Assembly (NCBI GenBank): GCA_016844515.1 | Contig: JAERMP010000119.1 | Span: forward strand, 1 to 9,639 | Reading direction: 5' to 3' | Origin: Thermoleophilia bacterium | GTDB taxonomy: Bacteria > Actinomycetota > Thermoleophilia > Gaiellales > Gaiellaceae | DNA length: 9,639 nt | Shown: one piece after another, positions 8,574 through 9,242 of the stretch | Layout of the letters: each line of letters starts with the position of its first letter | How positions within the stretch are numbered: position 1 is the first letter of the stretch | The notes under the pieces: generated by a model | What the model was told of the DNA's origin: nothing | Database searches by the model: none | Seen by the model: only the letters and a program-made list of their open reading frames with translations | Program-made: the position numbers and the translations under genes

Positions 8574-9242
8574 GTGGACGCCTTCGACCTCGATGTGCGC
8601 CGCCACGTCTACTTCTCGGTCGTTGCGAGTGGCCGGCCGCCGACGACCACGGAGACCGCAGAGGCCTTCGGGCTAACCGAACCGGAGATCGCCGATGCGT
8701 ATCGGCGTCTTCACGGCGCGCACGCGCTCGTTCTCTTCCCGGATACGACCGACGTCTGGATGGCGAACCCCTTCTGCTTCGTGCCGACGCCGCATCGCGT
8801 CACGGCCGGCGGGCGAACCTGGACGGGAACATGCGCCTGGGATGCGCTCGGCATTCCCGGCGCGTTGCACGGCGACGGCCGCGTCGACACCGAGTGCGCA
8901 TGTTGCGGTGACTTGCTTGCGCTCGAGGTCGTCGGCGGTGAGCTCGCGCGTGGCGCGGACGTGCTCGTCCACCTGGTTGTCCCGGCACGACGCTGGTGGG
9001 ACGACATCGGCTTCACCTGAAGCACCATCGTCTACCTCCGGTCGGAGGAGCACCTGGAACGATGGCTCGACGCCAACGGTTACGAGCGCGGGGCGTCGAT
9101 GGCTGCCTCGCAGATGAACGACCTCGCCCGGCGGTTCTGGTGGACGCGGCTCGACCCCGGCTGGCAGCCCAGGTCGCTCGACGAGTCGCAAGCGATCCTC
9201 GTCGAAGTCGGGCTCACCGGCGAGTTCTGGCAGCTGCTGTAG
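8574..9242 (+). CDS. Alkylmercury lyase (MerB)-like protein with in-frame TGA, probable selenoprotein
   Basis: MerB enzymes cleave carbon-mercury bonds with two Cys and one Asp (Cys96, Asp99, Cys159 in plasmid MerB). Read through the TGA at 9018-9020, this frame gives 222 residues. It has an N-terminal winged-helix-like region (about 4-55), MANPFCFVPTP, GTCAWDALGIP with Cys87 and Asp90 in the MerB C-x2-D spacing, a CACCG cluster at 108-112, and VHLVVPARRWWDDIGFT-[TGA]-STIVYLRSEEHLERW. The TGA is residue 149, 62 after Cys87; in MerB, Cys159 is 63 after Cys96. So TGA replaces the catalytic cysteine. The 73 codons after it stay family-like (GASMAASQMNDLARRFWW, GLTGEFW) to a TAG. The SECIS-like hairpin beside it supports selenocysteine. 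The GTG at 8574 gives MDAFDLDVRRHVY and is preferred to the ATG at 8532. The alternative is a nonsense mutation. Whether mercury is the real substrate is unknown; no other mer gene is present. Confidence 0.8.
9018..9065 (+). promoter_or_regulatory. SECIS-like hairpin directing selenocysteine at TGA 9018
   Basis: Counting the T of TGA as 1, an upper stem CCTCC/GGAGG (9035-9039 with 9044-9048) is capped by a GGTC tetraloop at positions 23-26. Below it, C9032-G9050 and T9033-A9049 pair with A9034 (position 17) bulged. A lower stem CCATCGT/ACGATGG (9025-9031 with 9059-9065) closes the structure. The E. coli fdhF SECIS has a GGUC loop at 22-25 and a bulged U17, so spacing and loop match almost exactly; the bulge is A instead of U. 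The hairpin lies within coding sequence, as bacterial SECIS elements do, where SelB would bind it. Confidence 0.8.

Follow-up and report, generated by a model that had tools for sequence, protein, structure and literature searches.

Does the single in-frame TGA of a MerB-like gene end the protein, or is it read as selenocysteine (Sec)? The question is raised by contig JAERMP010000119.1 of a Thermoleophilia bacterium of the family Gaiellaceae (assembly GCA_016844515.1); the window, i.e. the whole stretch of DNA analyzed, comprises 9639 nucleotides (nt). The gene and its product are called Sec-MerB here. An earlier note on this DNA had proposed that the TGA is a probable selenocysteine codon; the proposal is now supported by Cys at the same column in homologues, by Sec machinery in the genomes of relatives and by a hairpin of the Sec insertion sequence (SECIS) type, of which that note made no mention. 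Insertion of Sec at UGA 9018-9020 is predicted and, we think, very likely. Since the codon for the second catalytic Cys is UGA with a conserved hairpin after it, Sec-MerB is likely a selenoprotein of the MerB family, in which Sec149, Cys87 and Asp90 would cleave carbon-metal bonds, most likely carbon-mercury bonds; we estimate the probability of this reading as roughly 0.7. The elements concerned are as follows.

8574-9242, plus strand: Sec-MerB gene, from a GTG start to a TAG stop, with a single in-frame TGA; it encodes 222 residues
8832-8834, plus strand: TGC for Cys87 in the CAWD motif; aligned with Cys96, the first catalytic Cys of MerB
8841-8843, plus strand: GAT, Asp90; column of MerB Asp99 (Ser in MerB2)
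9018-9020, plus strand: TGA, codon of the predicted selenocysteine 149; aligned with Cys159, the second catalytic Cys of MerB
9035-9048, plus strand: core of the predicted SECIS hairpin; stem 9035-9039/9044-9048 around the loop GGTC (9040-9043)

Reading frame and the TGA codon

The frame with its single TGA, codon 149, is present as the earlier note had described it, and the distance of 62 codons from Cys87 of the CAWD motif to the TGA was borne out. The sequence after the TGA had been called family-like; indeed, it is conserved in 51 aligned sequences, and the match to the Pfam MerB model (PF03243; 88.4 bits versus a cut-off of 27) covers residues 70-188, spanning the TGA.

TGA is also the normal stop of the purL-, purM-, purN- and purH-like frames of the window (names recognized by eye) as well as of both large minus-strand frames. 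As TGA ends these genes, its use as a sense codon throughout the genome was rejected.

Homologues and the residue at the UGA column

A search of 5.8 billion proteins with the read-through protein as query produced 976 relatives at E <= 0.001. All of the best 120 of these 976 cover 66-67% of the query, i.e. they stop at the UGA; 102 of the 120 have a length of exactly 148 residues, and most of the 120 share the start residue of Sec-MerB and finish just before the UGA. Listed relatives from Thermoleophilia and Gaiellaceae bear names such as 'alkylmercury lyase family protein' and 'organomercurial lyase'. Because the entries (best 120 of 976) stop at the UGA, genome annotation appears to lack a set of selenoproteins.

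When residues 105-222 alone served as query, 23 proteins were matched, 7 of them full length. Five of the seven have Cys at the Sec column; the other two (P0123 and P0124) have Trp there and retain Cys87.

We then considered genomic DNA. A first genome scan, with peptide patterns ending at residue 148 (residue 149 was not part of them), found TGA at the same column in 14 of 14 loci, which belong to Actinomycetota, Acidobacteria, Calditrichota and Gemmatimonadetes. Three larger draws of genomes gave the following: (i) of the 299 genomes drawn from the class of G001, 30 were matched; TGA stood at the column in all 22 close relatives and likewise in the distant L095, Cys was seen in four weak MerB-like matches, and three matches did not extend over the column; (ii) the Cys form P0127, used as query on 396 genomes from the phylum of G001, matched 33: 18 genomes with 19 TGA places (three already seen), G435 with a broken frame and TGA, L101 and L102 with Cys, and 12 weak matches, among them L127, a broken frame with TGA; (iii) of 297 genomes from the phylum of G006, 13 were matched: 10 genomes with 11 TGA places, L139 with Trp at the Sec column and two weak matches.

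With repeats and weak relatives left out, the subfamily set consists of the window and 61 loci: TGA is found in 59 of the 62 sequences, Cys in two and Trp in one. The earlier note had named Cys at the TGA column as a thing to look for; it is present in the five full-length homologues, in L101 and L102 among the three subfamily loci without TGA, and in MerB-like relatives that match more weakly. Of the 59 TGA sequences, 56 retain the C-x-W-D motif; the three others are L091 (broken frame), L092 (later start) and L095 (Cys-x2-Glu). In L139, the Trp codon is TGG and Cys87 is replaced as well (by Ser), as if both catalytic residues had been lost together.

The frame of L095 (positions 1456-1974), a more distant MerB-like sequence, combines TGA at the same column and Cys-x2-Glu with the same GGTC hairpin.

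Could the TGA be a real stop, followed by dead sequence or produced by an assembly error? Public entries do end there (best 120 of 976), and another gene of the window, the purH-like one, is broken; however, 59 of 62 sequences have TGA at one and the same column, the part beyond it is conserved in the 51 aligned sequences, and the Pfam MerB match runs across it. A pseudogene or an assembly error at the TGA was rejected on the first two of these grounds, and we regard the chance of a real stop as negligible.

A conserved hairpin after the UGA

The model of bacterial SECIS (bSECIS) elements given in PMC13188914 calls for a 3-9 nt loop (G in the first two positions), 4-16 base pairs (bp) of stem, a distance of 16-37 nt from the UGA and a minimum free energy <= -7.5 kcal/mol. 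The hairpin of the window falls within these limits; it shares with the model a 4-nt loop beginning with GG, which sits on a 5-bp core stem (9035-9048), and a distance of 19 nt from the UGA to the loop. It differs from other bSECIS elements in that the loop, GGUC, is unusually uniform across phyla (58 of 59 TGA sequences); the 5-bp core is intact in 57 of the 59, the exceptions being L012 and L120. The window contains a single perfect 5-bp GGTC hairpin on its plus strand, at 9035, and none on its minus strand, with 0.2 expected per strand. We take the loop to resemble that of Escherichia coli fdhF.

Codon choice over the loop is similarly restricted. The Arg codon there is CGG in 56 of 59 sequences, compared with 27% of 1001 Arg codons in the rest of these genes, and is followed by TCG in 56 of 59, compared with 42% of 569 Ser codons elsewhere; these counts and the loop count are not independent, as the sequences are related.

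In 58 sequences (57 distinct), double changes preserving pairing were observed at six of the seven stem pairs. Shuffled controls averaged 2.1 pairs, with none of 500 reaching six, and structures slid along the alignment gave three at most. The strength of this signal is owed to the wider sample; the first 34 sequences alone showed weak covariation (two pairs, 91 of 500 shuffles as high). Pairing was kept even with a change of amino acid: Glu to Lys in L117, Glu to Gln in L133 and L134. The Cys and Trp forms L101, L102 and L139 keep 2, 1 and 3 of the five core pairs, respectively, i.e. the hairpin is lost there; L139 still encodes Phe-Arg-Ser at the site, by way of the codons CGC TCC. At the level of sequence comparison, the hairpin is shown to be a conserved, covarying structure, and this evidence is independent of the argument of the earlier note.

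In L120 (positions 130-189, minus strand), a TGA form, an insertion lies where the GGUC hairpin would be; it could be either another SECIS shape or a mark of a decaying gene.

Selenocysteine machinery in genomes of relatives

The Sec machinery, whose presence the earlier note had proposed to check, was found in genomes of relatives: selA, selB, selD and tRNA-Sec. Among the 14 genomes that carry the loci of the first scan, selA was over cut-off in 14, selB in 13, selD in 13 and RF01852 in 11; at the best place in each of the 14, ARAGORN called a tRNA-Sec (TCA anticodon) in ten, a tRNA-Ser in three and a tRNA-Arg in one. In the 299-genome draw, selA was over cut-off in 16 of 22 TGA genomes versus 133 of 277 others (one-sided p = 0.02), and further TGA genomes had it in 23 of 25 cases. 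Solirubrobacter soli DSM 22325 (genome G012 with locus L012), recorded as a culture-collection strain, carries the TGA form together with selA, selB, selD and tRNA-Sec; it would lend itself to practical tests, with the reservation that the hairpin of L012 is altered.

The selD matches in the genomes of L058, L061, L065, L067 and L068 contain an in-frame TGA themselves, and therefore selD is probably a selenoprotein gene in these genomes. When such selD genes were used as a control for the hairpin, the site was found by pattern in two of five loci, with hairpins unlike those of Sec-MerB; this control says little.

MerB fold and catalytic residues

The model of the read-through protein has a predicted local distance difference test score (pLDDT) of 97.1. 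Its 11 best matches in the PDB are all MerB entries, which places it in the MerB fold. The closest solved relative by sequence is MerB2 (5c17, E 1.7e-10); MerB chains are matched weakly (E 0.09-0.2). In alignments to MerB2 and to a MerB chain, the first catalytic Cys lies opposite Cys87, and a Cys lies opposite the TGA; the counterpart of Asp90 is Asp in the MerB chain and Ser in MerB2. The catalytic roles of Cys96, Asp99 and Cys159 of MerB are described in PMC4525700.

Sec-MerB thus shares with MerB (PF03243; PDB 3f0o, 3f2f and others) the fold, the Cys-x2-Asp motif and the second Cys/Sec column; it differs in having a predicted Sec for the second Cys. MerB2 (5c17) is its nearest solved structure both by sequence and by fold, but has Cys in place of the TGA and Ser in place of Asp90. 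Because of the fold and the three catalytic columns, we argue for MerB-like chemistry with Sec as one putative metal ligand; cleavage of organomercury is our best guess, made by analogy.

The following sequence of steps could be proposed. The hairpin would recruit SelB with Sec-tRNA, and Sec would be placed at the position of MerB Cys159, the column itself being observed. The selenolate of Sec149, more acidic and more mercury-loving than a thiolate, would bind the organometal jointly with Cys87; Asp90 would hand on the proton that frees the hydrocarbon; finally, cell thiols would remove the metal ion. The steps of binding, protonation and metal release are drawn by analogy with MerB as presented in PMC4525700.

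Counter-evidence and other chemistry

Several observations weigh against a Sec-dependent organomercury lyase. First, the evidence on sel genes comes from genomes of relatives and not from the window's own genome. Six of the 22 TGA genomes of the 299-genome draw are without selA over cut-off; one of the six (G238) has selB over cut-off, and five are without both, perhaps as incomplete assemblies. The genome of the distant TGA relative L095 (G088) has selA and no selB over cut-off. Moreover, selA is over cut-off in all three genomes whose subfamily locus has Cys or Trp at the column (L101, L102 and L139), and the change to Cys or Trp therefore did not follow a loss of selA. The Trp found at the Sec column of some relatives belongs here as well.

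Second, the hairpin is altered in L012, from a cultured Solirubrobacter, and replaced in L120. Rfam gave no SECIS match on the window or on the UGA region. Folding energies are -9.0 kcal/mol for a 24-nt stretch (z -1.4) and -17.8 kcal/mol for 45 nt (z -2.3); with z-scores of only this size, the energy alone is not unusual and not telling.

Part of these observations would agree with a suppressor tRNA that reads the UGA and inserts Cys or Trp instead of Sec: homologues have just these two residues at the column, and 5 of the 22 TGA genomes are without selA and selB over cut-off. Such a tRNA would, however, leave a bSECIS-type hairpin tied to the TGA forms to be explained, along with tRNA-Sec, selA, selB and selD in most genomes examined and TGA as terminator of other genes of the window; we consider it very unlikely.

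Third, links to known mercury resistance are few. The cut-offs of the NCBIfam MerB models were missed (NF033555, 38 of 200 bits; NF009710, 32.9 of 193). MerA (TIGR02053) was over cut-off in none of the 14 relatives' genomes, a further difference from MerB, and no mer genes were recognized near 15 loci, where neighbours were inspected by eye only. The same selenoprotein could then carry out other chemistry, either a redox reaction of Cys87 and Sec149 or attack on another metal or organometal (tin, lead, arsenic); the purH-like and cysteine-synthase-like frames adjoining Sec-MerB in the window's clade would fit this idea, too. The Cys, Asp and Cys/Sec columns of MerB are nevertheless retained and the fold is that of MerB, and we hold such a function to be unlikely, if deserving of attention.

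Returning to the organomercury lyase, Sec-MerB is probably a stand-alone detoxification gene, since no mer operon was recognized around it.

Relation to SaoL

The earlier note knew of no described Sec-containing enzyme of the MerB family. On this point it needs amending: a predicted one, SaoL, is in print, though model cut-off and motif set the present family apart from it. A single predicted Sec-containing MerB-like protein is listed in two reviews, as 'alkylmercury lyase MerB-like protein' (PMC9312934) and as SaoL (NF040728) of the SAO system, with the motif CU (PMC13188914); the alkylmercury-lyase-like selenoprotein under pfam03243 is equated there with SaoL.

Is Sec-MerB, then, simply SaoL? 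Both are MerB-like and predicted to contain Sec, the SaoL model does match Sec-MerB weakly (33.9 bits), and the reviews equate the pfam03243 selenoprotein with SaoL; besides, the oldest source that they cite was searched in its main text only, and its supplement may hold an early example of the family. Yet the cut-off of 140 bits was missed by Sec-MerB and by every match in the 396 genomes of the phylum of G001 (0 of 396 over it). The residue before Sec is Thr in 51, Asn in seven and Ser in one of the 59 TGA sequences, and never Cys, in contrast to the motif CU given for SaoL (PMC13188914). Membership in SaoL was rejected on these three grounds, and identity of the two is extremely unlikely. 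A search with a weak SaoL-like protein gave five matches, none named SaoL. By model cut-off and motif, Sec-MerB would be a variant distinct from the predicted SaoL.

No publication on the present family was found in one open-licence library, judged mostly from listings and with supplements excluded, and the literature listing held nothing to the point on Sec in Thermoleophilia. A term search of the main texts of PMC2398784, PMC12013277 and PMC5029168 returned no MerB-like protein.

Possible significance

The bond between mercury and selenium is very strong, and selenoproteins are commonly regarded as victims of methylmercury. An enzyme that uses selenocysteine against organomercury would, if real, reverse this view; it would also raise a testable question, namely whether Sec speeds the cleavage of the C-Hg bond or traps the product. 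The family is widespread, with at least four phyla and 976 homologous database proteins. One could speculate further, at about even odds, that a large branch of Sec-dependent organometal lyases, spread over at least four phyla and hidden by gene callers that end its frames at the UGA, has moved from thiolate to selenolate chemistry; in hosts without MerA, it may differ from MerB in substrate range or in metal release.

Neighbourhood of the gene

A purH-like and a cysteine-synthase-like frame (names by eye) lie in the same stretch as Sec-MerB in the window, L001, L002, L004 and L170. Clustering of open frames, which was confounded by antisense frames, brought out no neighbourhood conserved outside the kin of the window.

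The purH-like gene of the window (6687-8146) is split into frames 6693-6992 (frame 3) and 6989-8143 (frame 2), with ∼23 residues missing in comparison with L170; it is unbroken in L001 and L002. The split reflects either an assembly error or a real break.

Between this gene and Sec-MerB, palindromic repeats of the type GGGGTCAGACCCC occupy positions 8147-8215. They are followed on the minus strand by a divergent frame of 88 residues (8219-8482) with the Cys-rich stretch RCPGEECAFWDRGC. This frame was not found by tblastn in L002-L004; a copy with 81% identity is present in L001, adjoining the Sec-MerB gene of that locus.
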